DNA from: Candidatus Kapaibacterium sp.
Lineage (GTDB): Bacteria; Bacteroidota; Ignavibacteria; Palsa-1295
Direction of reading: 5' to 3'
Length of the DNA: 35,926 nucleotides
NCBI GenBank assembly: GCA_017882165.1
Contig: JADGPZ010000013.1
Span: 1 to 35,926 of the forward strand
The position numbers and the translations under genes were made by a program. This document shows, one piece after another, positions 5,088-33,444 of this stretch (the first letter of the stretch is position 1; every line of letters starts with the position of its first letter). The notes below the pieces were generated by a model. The model saw only the letters and a list, made by a program, of their open reading frames with translations. It did not search any database and was not told the origin of the DNA.

Positions 5088-5750
5088 TCACGACGACAAC
5101 TTGACTTTGAGGTCGGTCCACGTTGCGCTCGGGGTCCCGCTCGATGATGGAAAGTCCGACCACGATACGATGCGCCACTCCTTTGTGCCCTGCTCAGTGG
5201 TGACGAGCACGAACTGCATCTCGAACGAGCCGCGCACCGTATCGCTGGCAATAACGCCGGATGGAAGAGCGATGGTATAGGATGTCGTCAGGCTTGCCGT
5301 GTTGGGAGTCTGCACCGGTGCGATAGCGCCAAGTGTCACCGAAAGCGGTTCCGTGTGCGGCAGCGTCGAAAGCTTCGCGAGCCATGCGCGCTCGGATTCC
5401 GATGGCCCATCGACACTCCAGTTTGTGAAGATGCTTCGTGAGGATGGGTCGAGTCCGGCCACTGGCGTGAATGTGAAGGTCTTCGGCGCGCTGCCTGTCG
5501 AATCCGTGCTCGTGATAAAGGCGCGGATATAGTTCGACGCATCGAACGCCTGGAGCGCGCCTGTGAAATTACTCATCAGGATTTCGACGGTGGTCGCTGG
5601 AGTCCAGATGAACGTGTTCGCATTGCTCGGTGGCTCGGGTGCGCGCGTCGAGAAGAGGTCGCAGCCGATCAAAGTAACGAGCGCAACCATGGTTGCGAAT
5701 GAGTAACGAGCGCAACCATGGTTGCGAACGAGTAATGCGCGGCGACACAT
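5088..5750 (-). CDS. putative lipoprotein with uncertain start, hypothetical
   Basis: A protein of 220 residues if translated from ATG 5750. The hydrophobic run FATMVALVTLIG ends in a lipobox cysteine at residue 30, followed by Asp. A later ATG at 5690 would leave only nine residues before the cysteine, which is too short for a lipoprotein signal. The upstream start is therefore preferred, although it depends on a 29-bp tandem duplication that lies inside the signal-peptide region (see 5673-5728). The mature part (EILMSNFTGALQAFDASNYI...) is alternating helix and strand and may be NTF2-like, like its downstream neighbour. It ends one base before that neighbour starts. No known family is recognised. 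Confidence 0.62.
   Translation of the reverse strand: MCRRALLVRNHGCARYSFATMVALVTLIGCDLFSTRAPEPPSNANTFIWTPATTVEILMSNFTGALQAFDASNYIRAFITSTDSTGSAPKTFTFTPVAGLDPSSRSIFTNWSVDGPSESERAWLAKLSTLPHTEPLSVTLGAIAPVQTPNTASLTTSYTIALPSGVIASDTVRGSFEMQFVLVTTEQGTKEWRIVSWSDFPSSSGTPSATWTDLKVKLSS
5673..5728. repeat. 29-bp tandem duplication carrying a 16-bp palindrome
   Basis: The segments 5673-5699 and 5702-5728 are identical over 27 bases with a period of 29. Each contains the perfect 16-bp palindrome CGCAACCATGGTTGCG, so the lipoprotein start region carries two ATG codons in two different frames. Because 29 is not a multiple of three, the duplication changes which upstream ATG reads into the lipoprotein. AGTAACG units border each copy, linking it to the heptamer array next door. 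Confidence 0.88.
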
Positions 5751-14315: not shown

Positions 14316-14642
14316 TATTCAGTCATCTCCGCAGCACAATTGGAAGCGCGATAGGGATAGTATGCAGTTCTATTGCAGATCATCTGCAAATAATCACCTA
14401 CTCTATCCTCTTACGAGAACACCGTCGCCCTTGTTAGAAGGTGCAAGCCTTCACCGGCTCGCATGTGAATCAGTTAGATAGGTGAGGCTTGGGCTCGTCA
14501 GGCACCAAGCACACAATCCTGCTGCGCGTGCAACACTCGGGGTCGGTCCTGAGTGTGATAGCTAACCCCTCGGCACGATCGGCTTGCGTTTATGACACAT
14601 CCTCCCTCGATGCCCCTTTCAAACAATAATTGCTCTATCCGT
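14316..14642 (+). other. structured leader region upstream of the secretome operon
   Basis: No gene is seen here. Three consecutive hairpins lie before the large T9SS gene: GAAGG/CCTTC (14436-14456), GCTTGG/CCAAGC (14487-14510), and the strongest, ACACTCGGG/CCTGAGTGT (14533-14556, 9 bp with one G-T pair and a 6-base loop). None is followed by a T-run. They may form a 5' leader structure. No known riboswitch was recognised. Confidence 0.35.
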
Positions 14643-17600
14643 ATGACGAACTTCATTGCATCTCATCGAAGAGTCTTTTTCATCCTGATACTCGCCGTGC
14701 TTTCCATCCTATCGCTTCCGATGCCGGGGAGGGCGCAACAACCTTGGGAATGGAACCGACTGAATGAGTCAATGTACGACTGGATACCAGACTGCTCAAA
14801 TGAGGATTCGCCGCCATTACCACCCGGAGTCCACACGCTACATCGGTATAGCAACGACAACGACGGCATTCCAACCGCTCACTTTTATCCGCCTGATACA
14901 CGAATTGGAGCAGAAGACCTCGGACACCTTGCACCGAATAGCGCCGCGATTTATGTCGGGAATACGGTGTTCGCACTTTTCGAAGACAAGCCAGGCGACG
15001 TCTTTCAGCCCATACCTACCGGCAATCTCCAGCACATCCCAAATTATTGCCGAATTCGGGTACGTGAAATTGATCCGGGTACCGGTTCTGCAGTTAGCAC
15101 TCAAACCCTTGACGCGCAGGAGGCCGAGTGTTCGTTACCTAAACTGTTTTCGATTGGGGGCGGCTTGCTGTGGGCCGTGTGGAAAGAGCATAACTCTTCT
15201 GGTGATCGAATCATGACATCGCGATATAATGGAGCCGATTGGAGCGCGCCTATATCGCCTTCAGGCACCACATACTACACTGACATTCGAGAGTACGATG
15301 CATGTATCGATGTTGCCGGTGATTTATCGGTCGTGATTCGAGTTCACGTCAGTCAGTACGAGGATCAAGTTTGGACACAAGGACTTACGAATGGAGCTCC
15401 ACCGGCGTATCTGTGGAACGCAACAGGCTACTTGCCGATGCACCAAGTCGGCGGTTATCCGCTGAAATCGGCGCGGCTGTTATACAATCCACTCATTCGA
15501 TGGAACGACCCGATGGGGCGATTCGAATATGCATGGGGTAGTCAAGACCGTGCCGGTCAGTTTGCGACAGATTCGACCGTCACTCAGTTGTTTCCTGACT
15601 CGCTAACAGTTCAAGCTATTGACTTAACACCCTCAGAGATTAATGCAGCAGGTGGCATATTTGCGAACGTTACACTCATTGACTTTCTGACGACCTCTGG
15701 AAGTGCCGATGATGATTGCCAGCACGCAGAGTTCTACATGGTTCCATGCAAAGGAGACCCGCTCTGGTATACAACCGACCCAGCTGCCGAATTTCTACTC
15801 TATCTTGACAAGAATGGAAACTTGAAACTAGCCGGCTTCACTATTGAAAATCCAGCCGTAGTATCATACGCAACCCTTCACACTGCAACAAGTGGGTGGA
15901 CCAACGAGGATGACCTCGTTAAGCCTTCTGGGCTTGTCCGGTATGATGTCTCGGCTTATCGACAAGATCCGATCGCTCTTTATGAAGGCAATTCGTATAC
16001 GCCTGATTTCGATACCTACGCATACCGGTTGAACGCCGATCTCGGATCGAGCATTTGGAGTACCAACTACACTGGCAGCTCTCCTGCAGACGTTAACGGT
16101 GAGTTGAATCAGATGCAGACTTGCTTTTCACAGGGCAATTTATATGCCCTCTTGCCAATGTGGGCCGATCTGGGCGGTTCAACTAACAAAAGCATCCTAT
16201 TCAGGATTGATGTCTCGACTGGGACATTCACCAAAGCAGCTCGAATTGATGGGCACATTCCTCTCGATCAAATACAATTCCCCCACGCAGACCATGCTTA
16301 TTTTGAACCCTCATTCTCCTTAGCAGCGTGCGATACATCGCTATCAATTATCGAGTTTACCTCCGCAAAATTTGTTACTGGTGATTATGCGGCTCAATAT
16401 ACGGGAAGAGGTCCATTCAACGGAGGGGCGCATCGTAAATTATACATCAGGAATCAGGAAACGGGCGAGCCACAGCGAGTACAGGTGCAGACTCCGTACG
16501 ATCAATACTGTTTTCAGCACTATTCCACGACAACGAGTACTCCATATGTCGCGGATTCCTTCGGCGCCATCCTTCAGCGGCCGATAATCCATCACGATCC
16601 TGCAACAGCCGTCTTCCACAGCCAGGAGGTGACGGTGTATGAAGAGATGTCAGATGCTGGCAATTCCAAGATCATGCTTGGAATTCGTGGCACCTCAACA
16701 CCTTACATGATCGCAAAATCTGTGAAAGGAGACACCTGCTATTTCCAGCCAAGAGTAGCCATCATTCATAACTCAAGTTCAGGCGATTTTGCCCTAATTA
16801 CCTATGTTGCCGAATTTGGTGGCGGCTCAGCGTTCGGATATAGCATGTTCAATTTGTCCTCGCTGTCCTGCGTGAGCGGACCTACATTCTATTTATCACA
16901 CACCTCGCACTATTATTATCGGAACTGGTCGGTTGTTTTTGATTCAGTGGATAACGAAGCCATCTGTGTCTTTGGTAGGGCCTATTTTACGAATTCAGAA
17001 ATCGATGCAATCGCTTTTGATTCGACTGGTTCAATGCTTTGGTATCCCGGCACGTTGAAAACCATTCAAGCAAATTACTCTGACGACTACATTGATGAAG
17101 TGCGTGCTGTATTCGATCCTAACGACACCAATAGAGGGGTCTTCGTGACCTGGCGCGAATCGCCCGATCTTGGTCTGTACGATTACAGTGGTTCGCTTCA
17201 GGAGATTGGAGATTCTGCAGTCATTGGACTTTCGCATATAAATTTCGCAAGTGGCGCGGTATGGACTCCTGGAACGATCCTTCTTGGAACTTCATGGTTT
17301 GGCCATCGTGGTGAACCAGTCGTTTGTGCGGGCCGCACGTGGGTGTATGTTGCCTGGGTCGAAAACTGGTCATGGTGGACGCCTTATCCGGTCATATTTG
17401 GATGCGGAGTCGACTCGGGTGGCAATCTTCTGTCAGGCTCATCCTGGGCAGGAACGCAAGTATCACAAGTATTTACGGGGCAGAGCAGTTCGACCTACCA
17501 AGCAACGCAGCCGGATTTAGTTGCGTATGCTGCATCGTCGATGATCCTTGCCTTCGAATGCGATGACGATCCCACATACGCGTCTCACACCAATCAGCGA

Positions 17601-18854
17601 TTCATCGCGCTCGAAAACATCTCGCCGCTGTCGAATACCGTCAATTCGGAGGCGAAAATGCTCTTCTCGCCAACTCTATCGATAACACCGACCGATGCTG
17701 AGAATTCGCTCTTCGGAGGATACTTACAACGCCATCCGAAGCTGACGGCATTCCTCGATTTGGATGAAGGGAGCAAGTACTTTCCGGCGCTGGCGTCAAT
17801 GGTGATGGTCGCGTACGAGGTCGAGCCATACTATCTCTCAAATAGCTACTCTCCATACACCGATATTTGGAGCATGGAGATGGCGCGACGGGTGACGCAT
17901 TTGAACGACCTCGGACTAAACGATGCGACCACCGGCCAGCCGGTTTGGGCGCAGAACAATATCGTGGCGCGGCTAATTGATCCGTCGTTGCCCACTCAGG
18001 TATCCGGTGGTCAGCCACTCTGTTTTGCGCAGTTCTCGCTCGCTCGAAATACGAACGCGCAGGATTTAGTCAGCCTCCATTACACGAAGGAACTTGGATT
18101 CACGGCCACTTTCCTCGATTATGTGAACACGGAGGACTTTAACGGTGTTGTGAAAAATGTTGACATCAACCCATTCATCATGTATTCGCCCGGCGCGACT
18201 TCTATTCCTTCGACGAATACTGGTGGCACATGGGCGCGAGGAACCGCTGCCAATACGCTCAACAACATTGTCTATAACACTTCGTGGGTTCCTCTGAAAG
18301 TCTATCCCGATGTGCGTTCTGACTCCATGCACTCATATCCGCATCACTATTGGAGCGTTCCAAATTCGATCACCCTACCGGCGCGGTCGGCTGAACCAAT
18401 TTATATATGGTACAACGCAAACCACGGACCATGCGATCTGCACCTGATGGTCTATGGAGATTTGGTCAGTCCTGGCCCATACATGGTTGGCCCCTTACAG
18501 TTCTGCTATTACGACACAGCACAGCAGATGATCGATAATAGCCCAGGGCCTGGGCTTAAGCAGTCGGGCGGCTCGAAACCAGTGGTGCAGAACGCGATTT
18601 CACTTTCGCTTTCAGCAAATCCATCGAACGGCGTAACGGATCTATTGCTGGGTGGACCAACTTCTATTATCGTTTCAATTCGAGTATTGAATTTACTCGG
18701 AGCGCCGGTAATGGAATTGCCGCCCGTGCAACTTTCCTCAAATGAAATGCGAGTACCTCTCGACTTCGTGAAACAACCACCCGGAAGCTACATCGTTGAG
18801 CTTTCGGGAAGTGATGGTTCGCGACTTAGCACGATCCTTACAATTGAAAAGTAA
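14643..18854 (+). CDS. very large T9SS-secreted protein 1, beta-propeller-like
   Basis: A 1403-residue exported protein counted from ATG 14643, which starts directly with a signal peptide (SHRRVFFILILAVLSILS, cleavage after GRAQ or nearby). An ATG at 14592 would add 17 residues before it and is less likely. The body has many short beta strands with Trp-rich blades (LLWAVWKEHN, VFVTWRESPD, YVAWVENWSW) typical of multi-blade propellers; no enzymatic motif is seen. The last ~90 residues form a type A sorting domain: SLSLSANPSNG, IRVLNLLGAPVMEL, GSYIVEL, ending LTIEK. The TAA stop is 4 bases before the next gene, so the two form a transcription unit. Probably a surface or released protein; ligand unknown. 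Confidence 0.8.
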   Translation: MTNFIASHRRVFFILILAVLSILSLPMPGRAQQPWEWNRLNESMYDWIPDCSNEDSPPLPPGVHTLHRYSNDNDGIPTAHFYPPDTRIGAEDLGHLAPNSAAIYVGNTVFALFEDKPGDVFQPIPTGNLQHIPNYCRIRVREIDPGTGSAVSTQTLDAQEAECSLPKLFSIGGGLLWAVWKEHNSSGDRIMTSRYNGADWSAPISPSGTTYYTDIREYDACIDVAGDLSVVIRVHVSQYEDQVWTQGLTNGAPPAYLWNATGYLPMHQVGGYPLKSARLLYNPLIRWNDPMGRFEYAWGSQDRAGQFATDSTVTQLFPDSLTVQAIDLTPSEINAAGGIFANVTLIDFLTTSGSADDDCQHAEFYMVPCKGDPLWYTTDPAAEFLLYLDKNGNLKLAGFTIENPAVVSYATLHTATSGWTNEDDLVKPSGLVRYDVSAYRQDPIALYEGNSYTPDFDTYAYRLNADLGSSIWSTNYTGSSPADVNGELNQMQTCFSQGNLYALLPMWADLGGSTNKSILFRIDVSTGTFTKAARIDGHIPLDQIQFPHADHAYFEPSFSLAACDTSLSIIEFTSAKFVTGDYAAQYTGRGPFNGGAHRKLYIRNQETGEPQRVQVQTPYDQYCFQHYSTTTSTPYVADSFGAILQRPIIHHDPATAVFHSQEVTVYEEMSDAGNSKIMLGIRGTSTPYMIAKSVKGDTCYFQPRVAIIHNSSSGDFALITYVAEFGGGSAFGYSMFNLSSLSCVSGPTFYLSHTSHYYYRNWSVVFDSVDNEAICVFGRAYFTNSEIDAIAFDSTGSMLWYPGTLKTIQANYSDDYIDEVRAVFDPNDTNRGVFVTWRESPDLGLYDYSGSLQEIGDSAVIGLSHINFASGAVWTPGTILLGTSWFGHRGEPVVCAGRTWVYVAWVENWSWWTPYPVIFGCGVDSGGNLLSGSSWAGTQVSQVFTGQSSSTYQATQPDLVAYAASSMILAFECDDDPTYASHTNQRFIALENISPLSNTVNSEAKMLFSPTLSITPTDAENSLFGGYLQRHPKLTAFLDLDEGSKYFPALASMVMVAYEVEPYYLSNSYSPYTDIWSMEMARRVTHLNDLGLNDATTGQPVWAQNNIVARLIDPSLPTQVSGGQPLCFAQFSLARNTNAQDLVSLHYTKELGFTATFLDYVNTEDFNGVVKNVDINPFIMYSPGATSIPSTNTGGTWARGTAANTLNNIVYNTSWVPLKVYPDVRSDSMHSYPHHYWSVPNSITLPARSAEPIYIWYNANHGPCDLHLMVYGDLVSPGPYMVGPLQFCYYDTAQQMIDNSPGPGLKQSGGSKPVVQNAISLSLSANPSNGVTDLLLGGPTSIIVSIRVLNLLGAPVMELPPVQLSSNEMRVPLDFVKQPPGSYIVELSGSDGSRLSTILTIEK

Positions 18855-18858
18855 AACC

Positions 18859-21800
18859 ATGTCGCACTGTCTGTCTTATCGATGTTTACACCCTGCCGCC
18901 GATCTTCGGCGGCGGGGGGGGCTTCTCGTAATCATTTTAATTGCATGGTGTAGCCCCGCACGACCCCAACACTGGCAGAATGTAGGCTCTTTTTCAGAAT
19001 GGATCGCCCCGTATTTTGTGAATCAAGATTACGGGTTCGTTTATACCTGCGGCACACCAATTTATTCCACTCCTTTCGGTACTCCTCAGGACAAGACCGC
19101 TCTTTATCGAACAACTGACGCTGGTTCTACATGGCAAAAGATGAATCTCGGACGCTTAGAGAGGTGGCCTGGTTTCATTGTTCAGCTCCTATTCACAACG
19201 CCTAATCATGGCTATTTGATGGCAGACGCTCCACCCTTATATAAGGGAGTCTTTGTAACCAATGATAGCGGCATGAACTGGACTCAGATTGACACGAGTT
19301 ATTTTTACTGTATGTACGCCGTCGATTCGGATCTTTTCTTCACCACTTCACTGATCGAGTTATCGACGGATACCGATAAGACGCGCTCCGTCGTCAACTC
19401 AAATTCGCATCGAATAATAGGCGGCAATTCCGAGGACTTAGTCATCGGCAATAGCAAAGGATATGTAAGTCGCAGTTTCGATCGTGGAACAACATGGCGT
19501 TCGTTGCGGGTCAATTCCCAGGCAGATTTTGATGCATTTTGGGATTACGTGATGCCTCATACGAATTTCATTACACTTGCAGCTGAAAATGGCCCTGGTC
19601 GTGGTTCCGAAATATGGACTTCGGCAGACGGAGGAGCCACATGGCTGTTGAAGCAAAGCTTTGCGGAGTCTGGAAGTATCGGACACGTAGCCGGCGATGG
19701 ATGTGTAATTTATGTGCAAAGAGCGGAGGATATTTCCGGTCAATTAGGTATCCTGCGATCAACGGATTTTGGGCAGACGTGGATTAATATTGGGGGTCCT
19801 TCAGACGATTTCGATTGCAGAAGAATTTCCGTGATTGGTCACGGCGCTGTCGTCTATGCGGCGAACAACTTTAACAACGCAGGAACGCATACGCTTTATA
19901 AGACAACCGACGGTGGGAATGGTGACCTCAGCCCCGTCGTGCATATCGTTGTGCAAACAGCGCATACGCTTGCGGCAGGCTCAGAGCATGATACGCTCGT
20001 TACAAAGCTCTGCGATTCGACTTCGCTCTCGCTGTGGCTTCAATTCACTGCCGACAAGTGCGACTATGGCGGCCTGACCAACGTGACGATCGATGGTCTG
20101 GATTCGAGCACGGCAAGCTACTCGATAAGAAAGACGAAATTTCCGTGGAGCCAGTTGACAGCGGACACGGCATGGATTTCCATTATTCCGAAGAAGCCAG
20201 GCACGTATCCACTCACAATCCACGAGCATTACACCGACGATGATTTCTTAGGTGGCGACACTACATTCAAGATAACGCTCATTATCAACGACAATCCCGG
20301 CGTGCTGGACTTGGCCGCGAAGCCAATGTATGATTTCGGGGTGCAGTCGCTGTGCAAGCCGCATGTTATAACGGATTCGTTCAGCGTGAGCGGGCATGGG
20401 TGCGAGGCGGTCAATGTGGATTCGATTGTGTTTCTGCCGGTGAGTGGCACCGGCTTCACATTCAAGAAGGTCAAGAGCTTCATTGCCAGCGACACACAGC
20501 ACCAGTTCCGTATCTCGTTCAAGCCCGCACTAGCTGAATCGGATAGTGGCGTGATCGTGATCTATTCGTTCGATGGCACGTCGCACCACACGGACACAAT
20601 TCTTGCTCGCGGCTCCGCAGTTGCGGACGCGCGCTCGTTCGTAATCTCCTCGGACACGCTGACGACCCGGATGTGCGATTCAGTCGGGGGGACAGTAACA
20701 CTTCAGAATCCGACGTGCAACCAGATGGAGCTTGACTCGATCTCGTTGCCGCCAGGCCTCACCCTGCTCAGCAAGCTTCCGGCCATGCTCGACACGAGTT
20801 CGACAACCACGCTCAGCATTCGTCTGGGTCCAGGCACAGGGCTTGCGCCTCTACATTTGGGCGATACAGCGCTTGCAATCAGGCTGCATGTTGTTGGCAC
20901 ATCGTCATTCGATACGACGGTCATGCTACACGTCCACATCTCCCGCGGGATACCGGCAATGACTCTGTTAACGAACAGCCTGAATTTTGACAGCGTCTCA
21001 ACATGTTCCTCGAAGAGGTTGGCGGTTTTGATCCAAAGCACCGGATGCGACACGCTCCACTGTAACAGCACAATTTCCAAATCTGCATTCCTTTTGGAGA
21101 GACCTTTTTCGTCTGCATTGCCAGTTGGCTCGACAGACACAGTCTGGATCACATTTGCCTCGCAAACTCCTGGGCTCTTTTTTGACACACTCACCATTAC
21201 GACCAATGTTGGCAAGGCACTCGTGCCTTTGCAGGCATACGCAATGGCGGATGTTGCAGCATTGACGGGTGGATCGCTTGCACTGCCACAAGTCTTTGCT
21301 TCGTGCGGCGGCGACACTGGCCGGATCGATCTTCCAAATCTCTCCTGCAAAAGCATCGTGATCGACTCGGTTGCCGGTATTTGCACGCCATTTCAGGTCC
21401 TCTCAGGGATCGGCGATACTATTCTCAGTTCGGGAAGCGGTCGACTGATCGTTAGCTATATCCCGCAAAATGCCGGATCGGACGATTGCACCGTGCGCGT
21501 CTATTATCATGGCTTGGATGGCATCCCCCATGACACAACATTCGCACTTTCAGCGAGCGCAATCGCGCCGCCACGCTTAAATGTACATCTGGTACAAGCA
21601 GGTCTCTCGGCTTCCAATCAAGGGCACGTGACGATCCCTATTCGTGTGAACGCTTCAAGTGGGATCGCCGGGCCTGAAACAATTGCGTTCCGGCTGAATA
21701 TGCGAACAGACTTGCTTACGTCGCTTTCAGTGACATCACCCATAGTTGGAGCGTACGCCACGACCACCCAATCAGACTATTCTGGTGTCAGTATTTCCAT

Positions 21801-22269
21801 CGCTTTGCCTTCGGGATTTGCCATTCTGGCTGATACGGTTATTGCAACGGTCGATTGCAAGGCTTTTGTCACCGACACGATGCAGACGACAATCACGCTG
21901 ACACAACCATCAATCACCTCTCGGGAACAATGTGTTTCATTGGACAGCGTGAGTCCTGCGATTACTTTTGATCTCAATCCATCATGTGGAGACTCATTGC
22001 TAACATTCTATATCGGCCATCGGTCATTCGCAATCGAGAACATCCGCCCGAATCCAGCGCGGGATGAGATCGAGGTGAAGGTAAGTGCTCCCGACAACAT
22101 CCAGGCAGAACTCTACGATGTATTGGGAAATGCGACGAGCCCACCGCTGAGTACTCTAAACGGAACTGCATTCTCCATCAATGTTTCGAATCTCCGGAAT
22201 GGAGTTTACTATCTGCGATTGAAACAAGACGGGTATTCACAAAGCAGGCGCGTGGTCATCAATCGGTGA
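18859..22269 (+). CDS. T9SS-secreted protein 2: Asp-box repeats plus Ig-like modules
   Basis: An 1136-residue protein with start at ATG 18859, four bases after the previous stop, giving signal peptide GLLVIILIAWCSPARPQ. The N-terminal ~370 residues form a BNR/sortilin-type propeller with Asp boxes YRTTDAGSTW (about 83-92), VTNDSGMNW, RSFDRGTTW, SADGGATW and RSTDFGQTW. The next ~600 residues are serial beta-sandwich modules with periodic cysteines and TFKI or LSIRL strands, like choice-of-anchor/HYDIN domains. The C-terminus is a sorting domain (IENIRPNPARDEIEVKV, ELYDVLGNA, GVYYLRL, RRVVINR). A G8 tract (18914-18921) lies inside the signal-peptide codons. It is probably a surface adhesin or hydrolase accessory; no catalytic residues are recognised. 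Confidence 0.84.
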   Translation: MSHCLSYRCLHPAADLRRRGGLLVIILIAWCSPARPQHWQNVGSFSEWIAPYFVNQDYGFVYTCGTPIYSTPFGTPQDKTALYRTTDAGSTWQKMNLGRLERWPGFIVQLLFTTPNHGYLMADAPPLYKGVFVTNDSGMNWTQIDTSYFYCMYAVDSDLFFTTSLIELSTDTDKTRSVVNSNSHRIIGGNSEDLVIGNSKGYVSRSFDRGTTWRSLRVNSQADFDAFWDYVMPHTNFITLAAENGPGRGSEIWTSADGGATWLLKQSFAESGSIGHVAGDGCVIYVQRAEDISGQLGILRSTDFGQTWINIGGPSDDFDCRRISVIGHGAVVYAANNFNNAGTHTLYKTTDGGNGDLSPVVHIVVQTAHTLAAGSEHDTLVTKLCDSTSLSLWLQFTADKCDYGGLTNVTIDGLDSSTASYSIRKTKFPWSQLTADTAWISIIPKKPGTYPLTIHEHYTDDDFLGGDTTFKITLIINDNPGVLDLAAKPMYDFGVQSLCKPHVITDSFSVSGHGCEAVNVDSIVFLPVSGTGFTFKKVKSFIASDTQHQFRISFKPALAESDSGVIVIYSFDGTSHHTDTILARGSAVADARSFVISSDTLTTRMCDSVGGTVTLQNPTCNQMELDSISLPPGLTLLSKLPAMLDTSSTTTLSIRLGPGTGLAPLHLGDTALAIRLHVVGTSSFDTTVMLHVHISRGIPAMTLLTNSLNFDSVSTCSSKRLAVLIQSTGCDTLHCNSTISKSAFLLERPFSSALPVGSTDTVWITFASQTPGLFFDTLTITTNVGKALVPLQAYAMADVAALTGGSLALPQVFASCGGDTGRIDLPNLSCKSIVIDSVAGICTPFQVLSGIGDTILSSGSGRLIVSYIPQNAGSDDCTVRVYYHGLDGIPHDTTFALSASAIAPPRLNVHLVQAGLSASNQGHVTIPIRVNASSGIAGPETIAFRLNMRTDLLTSLSVTSPIVGAYATTTQSDYSGVSISIALPSGFAILADTVIATVDCKAFVTDTMQTTITLTQPSITSREQCVSLDSVSPAITFDLNPSCGDSLLTFYIGHRSFAIENIRPNPARDEIEVKVSAPDNIQAELYDVLGNATSPPLSTLNGTAFSINVSNLRNGVYYLRLKQDGYSQSRRVVINR
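18914..18921. repeat. poly-G tract (G8) in the signal peptide of secreted protein 2
   Basis: Eight G bases cover codons 19-21, just before the hydrophobic core of the signal peptide. Gain or loss of one G would frameshift the gene at its start and switch off production. Confidence 0.85.
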
Positions 22270-22321
22270 GAACTGCGTGCCCGGAACGAGGCTCGCTTAA
22301 GGAATACCTGCAATTCTCCTG

Positions 22322-22388
22322 TAGAACAACTAGAGAAAGACGGCAAGAAGAAGATGACTCTTCTCTTGAGGTGTTCTTGTTTTTTCTT
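22322..22388 (+). terminator. weak terminator candidate after secreted protein 2
   Basis: AGAACA...GAGAA pairs imperfectly with TTCTC...TGTTCT and is followed by GTTTTTTCTT. The stem has mismatches. It would separate the first T9SS gene pair from the second. Confidence 0.38.
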
Positions 22389-22406
22389 AGTCAGTCCGCC
22401 ACCAGC

Positions 22407-22432
22407 CGTCCAAGTTCTAATCAACTTGGACG
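22407..22432. other. 10-bp hairpin between the two T9SS gene pairs
   Basis: CGTCCAAGTT pairs exactly with AACTTGGACG around the loop CTAATC. No T-run follows, so it is more likely a leader element of the downstream gene, which starts 68 bases later, or an mRNA-stabilising structure. Confidence 0.55.
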
Positions 22433-22499
22433 ACTCTCGACGGTCTCTCCGCTCGCATGACCCAGCGTCCTCTGTGAGTTGTCGTTTAGGTCTTAACTG

Positions 22500-25400
22500 A
22501 TGGTAAATATGAAACAGATTTCAAAAGCCGTGTTTGCGTTACTTCTGGGTCTCTCGTCGATCCTCGTTCGTTCGAGGGTTAACGCACAAGTCAACTCTGA
22601 TGCGTTCTCACCAAGTGTGACGAGTTTCAAAGGCACGGATGGCCATAGTTATGTTGTCACAGCCTATGCCTACTCGTCGAATGGAGGCGGATCGCGAATG
22701 GTCGGAATTCAACGTTCAACTGATGCCGGACAAAGCTGGATGACATATAACAACAGCCCATTCACCTTTAACCCGCCGATTGGCGGAAGCACGGCTGATA
22801 ATATCGATGATCCCCAGGTCCTCTCAATCGGAGGGGACAATCTCATTCTCGTCGTCCGGGCCTGGAAGCACTATGGCAGTACGGATTACGGAGCTACATG
22901 GGGCGATATGAGCTACACTATCCCGACTACCTGCGGCATCTTCCTGGCGCTCTCGACGAATGACGGGGCAAACTGGGGCTACTACAACAACGGCACTTGG
23001 ACCGAGGGGAAGTGGATGACGATCGGAACAAGTGCTTCGGATGGTTCGATCAATACTGTGGAGTATCCCAGGATAGCTTACCGCAAAGGCTTCAACGACA
23101 ATGGGTACATCGTCTGGGAAAAAAAGAGTTGGGTTTCGGAAGCCTCGGTGACCCTCACAAACCTGGGAGGACAAGCAGGTTCGGACGGTAAGTCCTCGCA
23201 CACTGCGGCATTCACGAACGCCCCGGGACTCTGGACATCATCCTCATCCGTGTCTGTTGCGTGCTTCAATGTAGCGGGTACGGACGCTCCCGTGGGTTGG
23301 GTGAGGAAGGACGGTAGCGGTACTGTCATAACCAAGCCGTTCGCGAACAGTGGCTCGCTTGCCAACAACCACTTCTCGCCGGGACCGGAATCTCCCTCGG
23401 TTGCGATCGCACCGGACGGAGAGATTTGGATCGCATTTCAGCGAATCTGCTATGCCGGATATGATGAGTATTATGATCAAAACCAAACTGGCTTCTGGAC
23501 ACCAGATCCGAACGGTGCTGGAGTAATGAGCTGGTTCGTGAATGGCAGGTCTCAGCCGGATGCTTTCATTTATGTGACCGAAGGCACTTTCGACCCTGCG
23601 GCTGGATTCACCTTCGAGACGGAGCAACAACTTTACCGCGATGAAATTGTTGGATACTACAACTGCTCGCGAGGATATTTATATGATAAGGACGCAACCA
23701 GCTCACACAATGCGATGTGGGATGGCGCGATTACCGGCGGGCCTTCAATACAGGTTGCATGTTTGGATCCGAGAGAGTGCTGCCCAATGTACTCGGTTGG
23801 TTTGGTTGACGTTTTTACAACCGGCGGAGTTCAAGGCCAAGTTATTGATACTCTCGTGGCCGATCCACGATCTTGGTTGATGTTCTTCCACGCAGATGTA
23901 TGTCAGAATGGGAAGGCGGCGGATTTTGCGAGTGCTGCCATAAATAACATCAAGCTGCAAACGAGCGGTCACCTACCTGATTATGGAAATACGCAAAGCA
24001 GCGATTGCCCGTCTGGTTGCATCGCAGAAGCAGATTGGCGTGTCGAACCGGATGGGAGTCACGCGCAAGACGGCGTAACAGGGCTGCTTAACTTTCGATT
24101 CTTCCCAACGCTCAAGTACGTTGAATTCTCGGACGGCTTCGATAATCTTTATCCGGAACAGCCGCAGGGACGGAACGAGTCATTCTTTTTGCTGGCGTGG
24201 ATGAGCGCGGGGCAATACCTATCTCCTCATGGATCGAACAGCTTGGATAGTATTATCTGTCGTGTGGCGGTTTCGTTTGATAACCAGTCCTTCACGCTCA
24301 CAAATTCTTCGGGTAAACACTATGAGATTCAGGACGCGGAAAATTACATCACGGGTTCGTATAGTGCAGTACATTGGGGGACGAAGCTCGATGTGTGCGC
24401 TGATGGAGGCGATCTTAAGATTCATGCTGTATGGCATTCCGCAGTAGATCAGAACACCACAAAGATAGGGTTACTTAAGGCAGAGAGGGGAGGAGTCATT
24501 CTCGTCCGGCCACAAGTCAACAACTTCGAGCCGATGGACCAGCAGAAGGCATTCCCAAATACACCATGGTTCGCGACGATGAATAGCGTGAATTACAACC
24601 CCCTCGTCGATTTTGAGATGCAAACCATGCCCAGCCTTCCGACGAGCGGGAGCATAACGTACGCTTCTTCGCTCGGACTCGCATCACTTCAGACGTCGCC
24701 CTCCCCTCCGACCGCGTTCACCTCGCCAGGAATCTACGATATTCCCTATCATCAAACGCCGATCGATTATGACATCGGCGATCTTGGGACAAGTAACCAA
24801 AGAAGACTGATCATGACCGGAAATACCGTGCATTGCTTCGGGTATCAATCAGCCGCCAACGGTTCGGTATGGCATAGCCATCGCATAACAAAGCCCGATG
24901 GGAGTATGACAGACTGGAGTCAGCCAGAATGCTTGACTGCGTCGGCTACGGTGTCAAACTGGAAACACGGAACACCTGCTTCTGCCGTATATATGCGAGG
25001 CGGAAACTCAAAGCAGAAGGCCTTTGCTGTCGTTTGGCGAGCCTTGACTGACAAGAACAATCCTGCTTTCGTCTTTTATACGAAGGAGATGGACGGATGC
25101 GATTCTCGCAGTGGCGGGGCATTGTTCAGGATCATTGCTCCCTTACCAACGGCAGCGTTTAAGAGTTGCACACCAGCAATCGCCCCGCTGACGGTCCCAG
25201 TAACTCCTGGGAAAAATGAGCGTTATTTGCTTGGGTGGGTAATTACCTACCCGTCGAATGGGATTCTCTATCACATAACCTTTCTAAGAGGCGATCAAAA
25301 AACTTCGGGAGTGCAAGCTCTTACTAATGACCAATGGGGGCAACGGTATTCACAGTTTACGTTAGCCAAGAATCAATCCGATGGAAACCTAATGGTCGTC

Positions 25401-27515
25401 TGGAATGACATCGGTTACTGGCCCTATACATGCCCGCGCCTCACTGCCGATGGCTTTGTATCGATCACGTCGAATGAGAATAATCGAGATGAGTTACTGA
25501 GTCAATCCGCTGCAGACCCTCATGCCTTAGCAGCGAACAGCCATGAGATTGCTTTCACGAATAATGGAAACATCTCCGGCTTAGCAGCCTATGCGGTCGA
25601 TGCACAGTTTTACACATCCGGAGATATGTTAGGCACGCTCCAGCCCGTCTTGCCCCCGGTCACCGTGGGATACTGTCAGGGCGATGGTGGATATTATGAC
25701 TTCTCGGGATCGTTCTACGCCAGGAATCCATCCATCACAATTAATAGTTCGGGACAAAATCTCCTTTCAGCCGAGCACATGAACGACCTCTTTGCCTACC
25801 CGCAAAGGACGCGGCACAGATATTCCTGGATTCGGCTATCGAACACAACCCCGCCTCTAAGCACAACGCTGCCACCGATTCGAACCAAATGGAGCACTAT
25901 CGTGGATAACATCACGGAGTCGGTGGCTACCGGCAATGAAGTGACCAATGCGAGCTACTCATGGCTCCTCAATCCGAGCCTGACCTCTTACCCGAAAACT
26001 CGATTGGCAAATGCCGATTATGATCGCTTTAGTGATTATGACCCGTCGGCGGCAGAGCTCCTCTTCTGGAAGAAGGATAGCACCTACTGGACCGGAAGTA
26101 AGCTACACCCGACGCTTAATACCGCACCTGTCAACACGCTACATGGATACGTGTTTTGGGAGCAAAATCGAGGTTTTCCATGGACTGGACAATGGTACAC
26201 GATTCCGCAATTTGGCTTAAGCGCCGAATTTGGTAAGAGCGCAACGAATCCGACCGCGCCAATTTTTCCTGTCGTAGGCACCAATGCGCATAGATCGTTC
26301 GGCCTGTACAATAATGGCCCAAAGTATCTGAATGATCCCAAGTATCAGTTTCTCTATCCAGATAAGAACTATGCGGGCTTCGAGAGCTACGCCGGGGGGA
26401 ATGACGTGAGTTCTGCTCTCCACCTCATTACGCCTGACCCAGGCACATGGGCTGGGTACAAAATGGGCACGTTCGTTCAACCGACAAACGTTGAGTATTA
26501 TCGTTCGGAATCGCGCGTGGCAGGTAATTCGATGGTAACGTTCAAATGGGGTAAGGTCTATGTGGAGGACACTGCACTTGGACTTCCTCCGCTTCAGATC
26601 ATATTACACAACGGGCAACCCGATTCGGCTGGCTTCGCCTCAACGCGTGCCATGCGCGATTCGATCTTTGCGACCGAATGGTTCAACTGGCCCGTCAGCG
26701 CATCGATCAATTACGATCGTTTGCTCTTCGTGCCGGTTGGCGGCCACTTAGACTCGACCATTACGCTCGACTCTGCTATCACGGACTCCGTGAGTATCCC
26801 TGATTCGCTGAAAGCCTTAATTGCGTTCGATACCATTGTGGGTTCGGGTGATTCAACGCTTTCCTCGAACTATTGGAATGACACGACATACTTCTTCCAT
26901 GAGGACACGACGATCGTATGCGACGCCGCATTTCGGCATACGGGTATTGCGATTAATTACACGGTGGAGTTGGTCCACCAGAGCGGGCATGTGGATACCA
27001 TCGAACAGATGCGGTACGATCCTTATGATAGCATCTTCATCTCGCCCACAACGGTCCATATCGTGCATGCCGATAATAAGCCCGATACGGTCATGCTCCG
27101 AGTGAGAGCCAACATCGTGGGACTTCCAGCGGATTCCGGCGTCGAGTTCGCGCGAGAGGTGATGTACGATTCGTACCCGAGTTCTGCCGATACTGCGATC
27201 GCCATTGGAAGCGCGGGTGTTATCGCTCCCGATAGTACCGGCTGCCTTCAGGTCCTCGGTCCGTATCCAAATCCATCGGTTGCTAGCGCAAGCAACGTTT
27301 CTATTCTTCTGAGCTATTGCCATGCCGGTCAGACTGTAACGGCGGCGGTGTTCGATGTTATGGGTAACCAGATCGGAAGCGCGGTCTCGATCACGTCCGA
27401 TGGATCTTCCTGGGACCGCGTTCAAATTCCGGCGCCAGCGAACCCCGGTACGTATTTCATTCACGTTTCCGCTGGTATACTCTCGCAGACACTCAACTAT
27501 TCCGTGACCAACTAA
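22500..27515 (+). CDS. very large T9SS-secreted protein 3, propeller-like
   Basis: A 1671-residue exported protein, the largest in the window. The signal peptide is KAVFALLLGLSSILV, ending VNAQ. ATG 22500 is used here; ATG 22509 is equally possible. The N-terminal third carries Asp-box-like segments (RSTDAGQSW, STNDGANW) and WP/FN-type blades; the middle has sialidase-like strand patterns (VAIAPDGEIWIAFQ) without a full active-site set. The C-terminal ~90 residues are a sorting domain (LGPYPNPSVASASN, AAVFDVMGNQIG, TYFIHV, LNYSVTN). The stop is one base before the next gene, so the two genes form a transcriptional pair, as genes 1 and 2 do. Probably a large surface or extracellular binding protein. 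Confidence 0.82.
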   Translation: MVNMKQISKAVFALLLGLSSILVRSRVNAQVNSDAFSPSVTSFKGTDGHSYVVTAYAYSSNGGGSRMVGIQRSTDAGQSWMTYNNSPFTFNPPIGGSTADNIDDPQVLSIGGDNLILVVRAWKHYGSTDYGATWGDMSYTIPTTCGIFLALSTNDGANWGYYNNGTWTEGKWMTIGTSASDGSINTVEYPRIAYRKGFNDNGYIVWEKKSWVSEASVTLTNLGGQAGSDGKSSHTAAFTNAPGLWTSSSSVSVACFNVAGTDAPVGWVRKDGSGTVITKPFANSGSLANNHFSPGPESPSVAIAPDGEIWIAFQRICYAGYDEYYDQNQTGFWTPDPNGAGVMSWFVNGRSQPDAFIYVTEGTFDPAAGFTFETEQQLYRDEIVGYYNCSRGYLYDKDATSSHNAMWDGAITGGPSIQVACLDPRECCPMYSVGLVDVFTTGGVQGQVIDTLVADPRSWLMFFHADVCQNGKAADFASAAINNIKLQTSGHLPDYGNTQSSDCPSGCIAEADWRVEPDGSHAQDGVTGLLNFRFFPTLKYVEFSDGFDNLYPEQPQGRNESFFLLAWMSAGQYLSPHGSNSLDSIICRVAVSFDNQSFTLTNSSGKHYEIQDAENYITGSYSAVHWGTKLDVCADGGDLKIHAVWHSAVDQNTTKIGLLKAERGGVILVRPQVNNFEPMDQQKAFPNTPWFATMNSVNYNPLVDFEMQTMPSLPTSGSITYASSLGLASLQTSPSPPTAFTSPGIYDIPYHQTPIDYDIGDLGTSNQRRLIMTGNTVHCFGYQSAANGSVWHSHRITKPDGSMTDWSQPECLTASATVSNWKHGTPASAVYMRGGNSKQKAFAVVWRALTDKNNPAFVFYTKEMDGCDSRSGGALFRIIAPLPTAAFKSCTPAIAPLTVPVTPGKNERYLLGWVITYPSNGILYHITFLRGDQKTSGVQALTNDQWGQRYSQFTLAKNQSDGNLMVVWNDIGYWPYTCPRLTADGFVSITSNENNRDELLSQSAADPHALAANSHEIAFTNNGNISGLAAYAVDAQFYTSGDMLGTLQPVLPPVTVGYCQGDGGYYDFSGSFYARNPSITINSSGQNLLSAEHMNDLFAYPQRTRHRYSWIRLSNTTPPLSTTLPPIRTKWSTIVDNITESVATGNEVTNASYSWLLNPSLTSYPKTRLANADYDRFSDYDPSAAELLFWKKDSTYWTGSKLHPTLNTAPVNTLHGYVFWEQNRGFPWTGQWYTIPQFGLSAEFGKSATNPTAPIFPVVGTNAHRSFGLYNNGPKYLNDPKYQFLYPDKNYAGFESYAGGNDVSSALHLITPDPGTWAGYKMGTFVQPTNVEYYRSESRVAGNSMVTFKWGKVYVEDTALGLPPLQIILHNGQPDSAGFASTRAMRDSIFATEWFNWPVSASINYDRLLFVPVGGHLDSTITLDSAITDSVSIPDSLKALIAFDTIVGSGDSTLSSNYWNDTTYFFHEDTTIVCDAAFRHTGIAINYTVELVHQSGHVDTIEQMRYDPYDSIFISPTTVHIVHADNKPDTVMLRVRANIVGLPADSGVEFAREVMYDSYPSSADTAIAIGSAGVIAPDSTGCLQVLGPYPNPSVASASNVSILLSYCHAGQTVTAAVFDVMGNQIGSAVSITSDGSSWDRVQIPAPANPGTYFIHVSAGILSQTLNYSVTN

Positions 27516-27516
27516 C

Positions 27517-28767
27517 ATGCAGTTGCGAGCGGTCATTTCTCTTGCAATCGCGGGCTGCGCCTTTATGGCGCAGCCTTCTTCGGCGCAGTGGAAAAAAATA
27601 TCCGATTTGGGCGGCGAAAGCGTTTCTGTGGTGTATTTTGTTGACCTTCCCGGCCCGGTCCGCATCGGATTCGTTGGCGCGAATGGTATTTGGAAAACGA
27701 CGGATGGAGGATCAACGTGGTCGAAATGCTTGATTTTTCCATTCATTGACGATATTGTTTTTAAGGATTCTCTTACCGGTTGGGCGGCCTGTTGGTATAG
27801 TCCGGCTTGGCCCGCGTGCTATCGCACAACCGACGGAGGGAGCACGTGGACCGCTCTCTCTGGCGCGATGGGATTCGGACTTAGCATCGGGTACTCGTCC
27901 TCTTCGCACCGTTTGTTCTTGGGATTGGATTCGAGCACGAAGTATTCCGATGACGATGGCAATACCTGGCATGACCTGCCGTTTACGTATGCCGTCGGAT
28001 TTTCATTCTCTTCCGGTCAAGATGGGATTGCGATGACTGGGGATACTGGCCATCAGGGATCGTTCTTCATAACTTCAGATGGCGGATTAACGTGGAGGCG
28101 AGGTAAGAGTTGGGTCAATGCAGGTGACCAGCCGTTGGCCATTCCGAACAGCTCCATTTGCTATGCGGCGGGCTTTGGTATCTTCAGAAGTATCGATAGC
28201 GGAGATACTTGGGGAATGATCTCCACTTTTGGTGCTGATACTGGCCATCTTACGTGGGCAATAATCCTAACCGGCGTCATTCGCGGCGATCTTTCGAAGC
28301 TGCTTGTCCAGTCCGATTCCGGGATTTACTACTCGCTGGATTCTGGAGTTACGTGGGTTCTTGACAATGGAAGTCCGTTTTGGAACTCTAACGTTGCAGT
28401 CTGTAAATTCTATCGTGGTAAAGGTGTGACTATTGCAGGCAAATTGTACAGCCAACAGGGGGGGGGGAAGGTGAATGATGGCCTTTGGGAGAGTATTGAT
28501 CCACCATCGGGCGTGGAGGAAAACCCCGTGCCACCTCCCTGCGAGCTTTCTATTTCCCTTGCGCGCGCGACGCTTACGGTAAGATCACCGGTCAGCATGT
28601 TGCGGGTGGTGCTCTTCGATGTATTGGGCAGCGCGGTCGCGGCGTTGGACGTGCACGAATCCCGCACGGCGAGCATGGATGTGGGCGCTCTGCCTGCGGG
28701 CGTCTATTTCGTTCATGTCACACTCGGCACGGGCGAAGTGCGGACGATGGAGTTGGTGAAGGAATAG
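27517..28767 (+). CDS. T9SS-secreted protein 4, BNR/Ycf48-like propeller
   Basis: A 416-residue exported protein with signal peptide AVISLAIAGCAFMA (QPSSAQ at the cleavage region). Residues about 30-310 form an Asp-box propeller with the blades KTTDGGSTW, RTTDGGSTW, YSDDDGNTW, TSDGGLTW, RSIDSGDTW and YSLDSGVTW. The whole resembles Ycf48/BNR-type propellers. The C-terminus is a sorting domain (SLARATLTVRS, VVLFDVLGSAVAAL, GVYFVHV, MELVKE). A G10 tract (28458-28467) lies at codons 314-317, between propeller and sorting domain; one base of slippage would remove the sorting domain and so prevent secretion. It starts one base after the previous gene's stop. Confidence 0.85.
   Translation: MQLRAVISLAIAGCAFMAQPSSAQWKKISDLGGESVSVVYFVDLPGPVRIGFVGANGIWKTTDGGSTWSKCLIFPFIDDIVFKDSLTGWAACWYSPAWPACYRTTDGGSTWTALSGAMGFGLSIGYSSSSHRLFLGLDSSTKYSDDDGNTWHDLPFTYAVGFSFSSGQDGIAMTGDTGHQGSFFITSDGGLTWRRGKSWVNAGDQPLAIPNSSICYAAGFGIFRSIDSGDTWGMISTFGADTGHLTWAIILTGVIRGDLSKLLVQSDSGIYYSLDSGVTWVLDNGSPFWNSNVAVCKFYRGKGVTIAGKLYSQQGGGKVNDGLWESIDPPSGVEENPVPPPCELSISLARATLTVRSPVSMLRVVLFDVLGSAVAALDVHESRTASMDVGALPAGVYFVHVTLGTGEVRTMELVKE
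28458..28467. repeat. poly-G tract (G10) in secreted protein 4
   Basis: Ten consecutive G bases span the residues Q-G-G-G-K. The tract is in frame here. Tracts of this length are classic slippage sites in phase-variable surface genes, and are also prone to sequencing error. Confidence 0.9.
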
Positions 28768-33099: not shown

Positions 33100-33444
33100 C
33101 CCGAGGTCAAGGGATAGCATCGGTACAGCCCGCCCCAACTCGTGTCAGTAACCATACGACCAGTGATCGGCGACCCGGACCGCCAGGTTTATCTCGACCA
33201 GCTACGTTGAGAGGCAGAATCTTACCATGCGGTTGAGAGGCAGAATCTTACCATGCGAATGAGCATGAGGCGATTTACCCGGTTAACGAATGCCATCAGC
33301 AAGAATCTCGACAACCTCGTAACGGCTTGCTCCTTGCATTTCTGCCATTACAATTTCATGCGCCTTCACCAGGCGCTCCTATGCGCTCCGGAGATGGCCG
33401 AAGGGTTGTCGAGGTCGATTGGGGATTGGGACGCGGTACTATAA
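33100..33444 (+). pseudogene. decayed DDE transposase, C-terminal part (IS1-like)
   Basis: HRYSPPQ and PVIGDPD (frame beginning at 33121) are followed by ISTSYVERQNLTMR in another frame, and then RMSMRRFTRLTNAISKNLDN (from 33256), HYNFMRLHQALLCAPEMAEG and a stop at 33442-33444. This order matches the C-terminal third of transposases often annotated as IS1 family in environmental bacteria (RYSP, STSYVERQNLTMRM, RRFTRLTNAF, HYNF-x-R-H). A stop codon lies just before HRYSP, frames change twice, and the N-terminal two thirds are absent. A 26-bp exact tandem duplication interrupts the VERQNLTMR region. It cannot encode an active enzyme. No terminal inverted repeats were found. Confidence 0.78.
33206..33257. 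repeat. 26-bp exact tandem duplication inside the transposase remnant
   Basis: Bases 33206-33231 are repeated exactly at 33232-33257. The unit encodes VERQNLTMR, one of the most conserved parts of the transposase. The duplication brings the downstream frame back in phase with the 33121 frame, though a stop (33208-33210) still intervenes. Confidence 0.95.

Follow-up and report, generated by a model that had tools for sequence, protein, structure and literature searches.

Two gene pairs and their poly-G tracts

Contig JADGPZ010000013.1 from the draft genome of a Candidatus Kapaibacterium sp. (35,926 nt; "the window" refers to this full stretch) contains two pairs of genes for secreted proteins, genes 1 and 2 and genes 3 and 4, with clear, weak, or possible C-terminal sorting domains of the type IX secretion system (T9SS). 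Uninterrupted runs of eight (G8) and ten (G10) guanines lie in genes 2 and 4, respectively. These tracts are plausibly phase-variable and represent a candidate for the known class of poly-G switches in an unstudied lineage. The genes and tracts are as follows.

Gene 1: 14592..18854, + strand, first of pair 1; 1420-aa secreted protein with an N-terminal signal sequence and, as read by eye, a possible C-terminal sorting domain.
Gene 2: 18859..22269, + strand; 1136-aa secreted protein with a signal peptide, a sortilin/BNR-type propeller region, HYDIN/choice-of-anchor-D-like repeats, and a C-terminal T9SS sorting domain.
G8: 18914..18921, + strand; the end of a CGG codon followed by GGG-GGG (RRR-GG), at the charged/hydrophobic border of the gene 2 signal peptide.
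Gene 3: 22500..27515, + strand, first of pair 2; 1671-aa secreted protein with a weak C-terminal sorting domain (TIGR04183, 21.6 bits; cutoff, 23).
Gene 4: 27517..28767, + strand; 416-aa secreted BNR/YCF48-like propeller protein with a signal peptide and a C-terminal beta domain resembling a T9SS sorting domain.
G10: 28458..28467, + strand; CAG-GGG-GGG-GGG (Q-G-G-G), within the last propeller hairpin of gene 4, in a loop modeled with low confidence.

Direct reading and a script count bear out the initial annotation as to the coordinates of both tracts, the position of G8 within signal-peptide codons, the location of each tract in the second gene of a pair, and the lack of other long G runs. 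Apart from the two tracts, the window has no G or C run above 6 nt; the next-longest G runs are two G6 (20686-20691 and 26394-26399), and the longest C run is C6. In both genes, G is on the coding strand, and both assembled tract lengths are in frame, leaving gene 2 open over 1136 codons and gene 4 over 416. The numbers of run starts expected per window and strand under first-order and second-order Markov models, respectively, are 0.26 and 0.08 for runs of at least 8 and 0.014 and 0.003 for runs of at least 10. When codons were drawn at random for the fixed protein sequences from the codon usage of the window (GGG is 17% of Gly codons), 2.0% of draws gave a run of at least 8 in gene 2, and 0.4% gave a run of at least 10 in gene 4.

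The sorting domain of gene 2 scores above the cutoffs of both profiles (TIGR04183, 42.5 bits versus 23; PF18962, 38.9 versus 27), and its propeller region matches PF15902 (37.9; cutoff, 33). The most likely start codon is ATG 18859, rather than 18796, in the A-rich context aaaagtaaaaccATG; the stop codon of gene 1 lies four bases before it. The gene 1 protein is without a match in Pfam or NCBIfam profile searches. In gene 4, the sorting-domain scores fall just under the cutoffs (TIGR04183, 22.7 bits versus 23; PF18962, 21.2 versus 27). Its AlphaFold2 model (predicted local distance difference test [pLDDT], 80.6; predicted template modeling score [pTM], 0.69) consists of a propeller followed by the C-terminal beta domain, and Foldseek matches of this model include YCF48, GH74 xyloglucanases, sortilin, and PorZ. 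The genome encodes SprA (TIGR04189; 551 bits, or 696 with neighboring pieces; cutoff, 200) and at least 150 sorting-domain genes.

Predicted outcomes of slippage

Replication slippage would be expected to add or remove a G at G8 and G10 more often than ordinary sites mutate, given the known biology of such runs and the excess of long tracts in this genome (see below). For gene 4, all out-of-frame lengths of G10 end translation at residue ~318, since each wrong frame reaches a stop no more than two codons past the tract (28472 and 28476), and the final strand of the propeller is lost along with the sorting domain. G10 had been placed between the propeller and the sorting domain. It is indeed upstream of the latter (residues ~345 to 415), but it encodes residues 313 to 318, inside the last propeller hairpin and before the final strand. 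These residues are unstructured in the model, so the loop would tolerate the gain or loss of three bases. The initial annotation also held that one slip leaves the gene 4 product unexported by the T9SS. The loss of the sorting domain follows directly from the frames; as to its fate, the shortened product would probably be exported without its last propeller strand and sorting domain and then be retained in the periplasm or degraded.

Gene 2 behaves differently. Two further features lie near its tract.

Alternative ATG: 18882..18884, + strand; putative alternative start, out of frame at G8 but brought into frame with the mature protein by a -1 or +2 change.
Inverted repeat before G8: 18895..18913, + strand; perfect 8-bp repeat with a 3-base loop, GCCGCCGA-TCT-TCGGCGGC, abutting G8.

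Read from ATG 18859, every out-of-frame change of G8 in our frame analysis (-2 to +2) aborts the gene 2 product, with +1 or -2 ending it after about 30 codons. After a change of -1 or +2, in contrast, the frame that begins at ATG 18882 has the N terminus MFTPCRRRSSAA, Gly residues, and then LLVIILIAWCSPARPQ, which by eye is still signal-peptide-like; were this start used, a shorter signal peptide would precede an unchanged mature protein. Because the initiation context of ATG 18882 (tctgtcttatcg) is poorer than the A-rich context of ATG 18859 and a strong predicted hairpin starts shortly downstream, we regard its use as no more than a possibility. The earlier claim that a single slip turns off gene 2 is thus only half right: it holds for +1 (OFF) and is uncertain for -1. 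The palindrome beside G8 could help slippage or damp translation; the predicted RNA stem at 18893-18917 has 12 pairs, including four Gs of the tract (fold z = -2.2). A separate idea, that this palindrome is a copy of a repeat element, was rejected, as the genome has no second copy even when up to 3 mismatches are allowed.

Long G runs in the genome

On both strands together, the 3.46-Mb draft genome contains just ten G runs of at least 8 (lengths 8, 8, 9, 9, 9, 9, 10, 10, 11, and 12). Runs of exactly 6 and 7 number 226 and 32, and geometric extension of this fall predicts 5.3 runs of at least 8 (observed, 10) and 0.75 of at least 9 (observed, 8); the latter is an approximately tenfold excess (P ~1e-6) that holds at the level of the genome and is not specific to genes 2 and 4. 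Slippage produces such a long tail, and we take it to indicate that runs of this size mutate readily here, not that they are selected. Five of the ten tracts are in convincing genes; each of the others lies between genes or in a short frame of doubtful status. Besides genes 2 and 4, the coding tracts are in genes for an OmpA/PD40 protein (L027), a TPM protein, within its Gly-rich tail (L028), and a LamG/SASA protein whose coding strand carries the run as C (L029). The proximity of the two window tracts (within 9.6 kb) was considered as a signal in itself and rejected, the chance probability being 0.23 given ten tracts in the genome.

Homologues and related genomes

The gene 3-gene 4 pair is kept in four other species of the genus (G001, G002, G004, and G005), with the gene 3 relative directly upstream of the gene 4 relative; a pair resembling genes 1 and 2, likewise adjacent and in the same order, was seen in one (G006, L139). 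At the site of G10, gene 4 relatives have variable loops that are often Gly rich. A second genome of this species was sought among GTDB contigs, and only remote relatives were found. Conservation of the tracts was also considered and rejected, as no homologue or paralogue examined has either one.

Most members of this family of genomes have 2 to 15 runs of at least 9, and two genomes that are 67% complete have none. When about 60 of these runs were classified, many proved to be intergenic, and the coding ones were in diverse genes. Three cases are similar to those of the window: a G10 within a signal peptide (G006:C183), a G10 that is in frame within the propeller of a T9SS protein (G012:C399), and the G9 of a gene 2 relative (G006:C182), described below. 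T9SS genes account for two of the five coding tracts in the genome studied here and about 5 of 24 in the family, compared with a base rate of 9 to 12% (at least 9%) of coding DNA; the total of about 24 reflects our judgement of which frames are genes. A T9SS share above the base rate is suggestive at most.

The closest approach to an OFF allele that we encountered is a gene of the gene 2 family in G006:C182 (L238, minus strand), whose frame breaks precisely at a G9 of its own: the part upstream of the run matches gene 2 residues 39 to 190 (E = 3e-15), and the part downstream matches residues 278 to 733 (E = 6e-88). The frame is broken again ~1.8 kb downstream of G9, at an array of about seven GGGTATC heptamers. 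This second break makes gene decay an equally good reading, and the locus is either doubly contingent or a pseudogene. Each gain or loss of the 7-bp unit shifts the frame as well. Arrays of at least three units were found in only two of 61 related genomes: G004, where one contig end carries 15 copies (L297, G004:C11:295527-295631), and G006, which has four copies in G006:C324 (L302) besides the array just described.

In the same class, three genomes of the f4 family have 166 (G025), 101 (G043), and 40 (G052) G runs of at least 9, while nearly all other class members have 0 to 21; in G025, many runs are intergenic and some are in 45-bp tandem arrays with one G9 per unit. G007, a 10-contig genome of the same family as the one studied here, has mostly intergenic G/C runs (L204-L215) of up to 21, 20, 18, and 16 bases. 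In G003:C6, a G15 (L223) beside an N gap and a T6 is an assembly joint and not a natural tract.

Comparison with known poly-G switches

Poly-G runs of at least 8 are established as switching in Campylobacter jejuni, which has 18 to 39 phase-variable genes per strain, and a cutoff of at least 7 was used for the Campylobacter phasome; G8 and G10, inside reading frames, exceed this cutoff (PMC6321876). The window tracts match in length those that switch Campylobacter and Neisseria genes (PMC6321876, PMC5320596), and their length, position, and frame logic fit with poly-G translational phase variation. They resemble the tracts of the Campylobacter phasome in length (8 to 12) and in having G on the coding strand in both genes. 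Unlike in Campylobacter (PMC6321876), this family of genomes has many tracts between genes or in doubtful open reading frames, and in about one-third of the coding cases the coding strand has C.

The two genes have different counterparts in Neisseria gonorrhoeae. A passage of PMC5320596, citing Jonsson et al. 1991, names pilC as a gene subject to poly-G translational phase variation. Like gene 2, pilC encodes a surface protein and has its run near the 5' end, where a length change shifts the frame and turns the protein off. The pilC run is located in signal-peptide codons, as is that of gene 2. The switching of pilC is experimentally shown, whereas gene 2 is known from one allele and has a second ATG that makes one slipped frame potentially ON. 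Gene 4 recalls the C-terminal phase variation of the NGK_1211 type (PMC5320596), in which a tract toward the 3' end alters or removes the C terminus, as G10 would. The difference is that gene 4 would lose a T9SS sorting domain, so that localization, and not the end sequence, would probably change. No case of slippage-based switching of T9SS sorting, or in T9SS bacteria, was found in the literature searched.

Phase variation or neutral slippage

On balance, we favor the view that G8 and G10 are slippage prone and phase-variable in the mechanistic sense. The suggestion of phase variation made in the initial annotation is upheld by the tract lengths, the frame logic, and the excess of runs of at least 9; it fares worse among the homologues and in the distribution of tracts over gene classes. 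Also in its favor are the flexible Gly loop at G10, the similar tracts in related genomes, the established poly-G switching of C. jejuni, and the presence of sprA and of many sorting-domain genes. A series of observations weighs against it. No G or C run longer than 7 is present anywhere in the fetched stretches of the homologues examined, and none of them has a run at the G8 or G10 site; these tractless homologues include 55% and 49% orthologues in G001 as well as paralogues in the same genome. Across the family, intergenic tracts are roughly as frequent as coding ones, and tracts also occur in housekeeping-type and other genes: era, a Ham1-family gene, Nramp, a sensor kinase, and sigma factors. 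In G003:C16, for example, the frame of an Era-like GTPase has a G9 some seven codons from its beginning (L225); this gene is of an essential type, and its true start may lie elsewhere. In G001:C1, a sigma-70 region-4 gene has a G14 close to its end (L243), and slippage there would alter the C terminus. Tracts are not significantly concentrated in T9SS genes (P about 0.06 to 0.15), the frame of the G006:C182 gene is broken a second time away from its G run, and each window tract is known from one assembled allele.

A rival reading is that the tracts are neutral: chance slippery sites in nonessential, fast-evolving genes that mutate slightly faster than other sites and are later lost, with no selected switch. 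We consider this a real possibility, though short of probable. The tracts are confined to the copies in this species, family tracts are scattered over intergenic and housekeeping sites, two tracts fall within 10 kb by chance in 23% of cases, T9SS enrichment is not significant, and the density of ten tracts in 3.46 Mb is far below that in Campylobacter (PMC6321876). Coding tracts this long, by contrast, should be purged if merely harmful, and both host genes probably encode surface-exposed products, for which selection usually favors switches of this kind. That one or both lengths are sequencing or assembly errors seems very improbable. The draft assembly is fragmented (249 contigs), homopolymers are error prone, and the L223 tract of another genome, next to N bases, is plainly an assembly joint; yet run errors usually break the frame, whereas genes 2 and 4 are fully open, homologues show Gly-rich loop residues at the gene 4 site, and neither tract is close to a contig end.

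If G8 and G10 are phase-variable, the outcome would be random, reversible cell-to-cell heterogeneity of surface proteins. A stronger form, in which an uncultured Bacteroidota-type lineage switches T9SS cargo by selected poly-G slippage, with gene 4 alternating between a surface-sorted and an unsorted, truncated product and with gene 2 either OFF or read from one of two start codons, appears rather unlikely to us. Should the tracts vary, display of T9SS cargo would be added to the known targets of slippage-based phase variation, alongside pili, opacity proteins, and glycosyltransferases, and, if true, this would extend the phenomenon beyond the host-adapted pathogens in which it has mostly been cataloged.

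Apart from the G runs, the window has short tandem repeats at 33206-33263 (26-bp unit, 2.2 copies) and 5673-5735 (29-bp unit, 2.2 copies).
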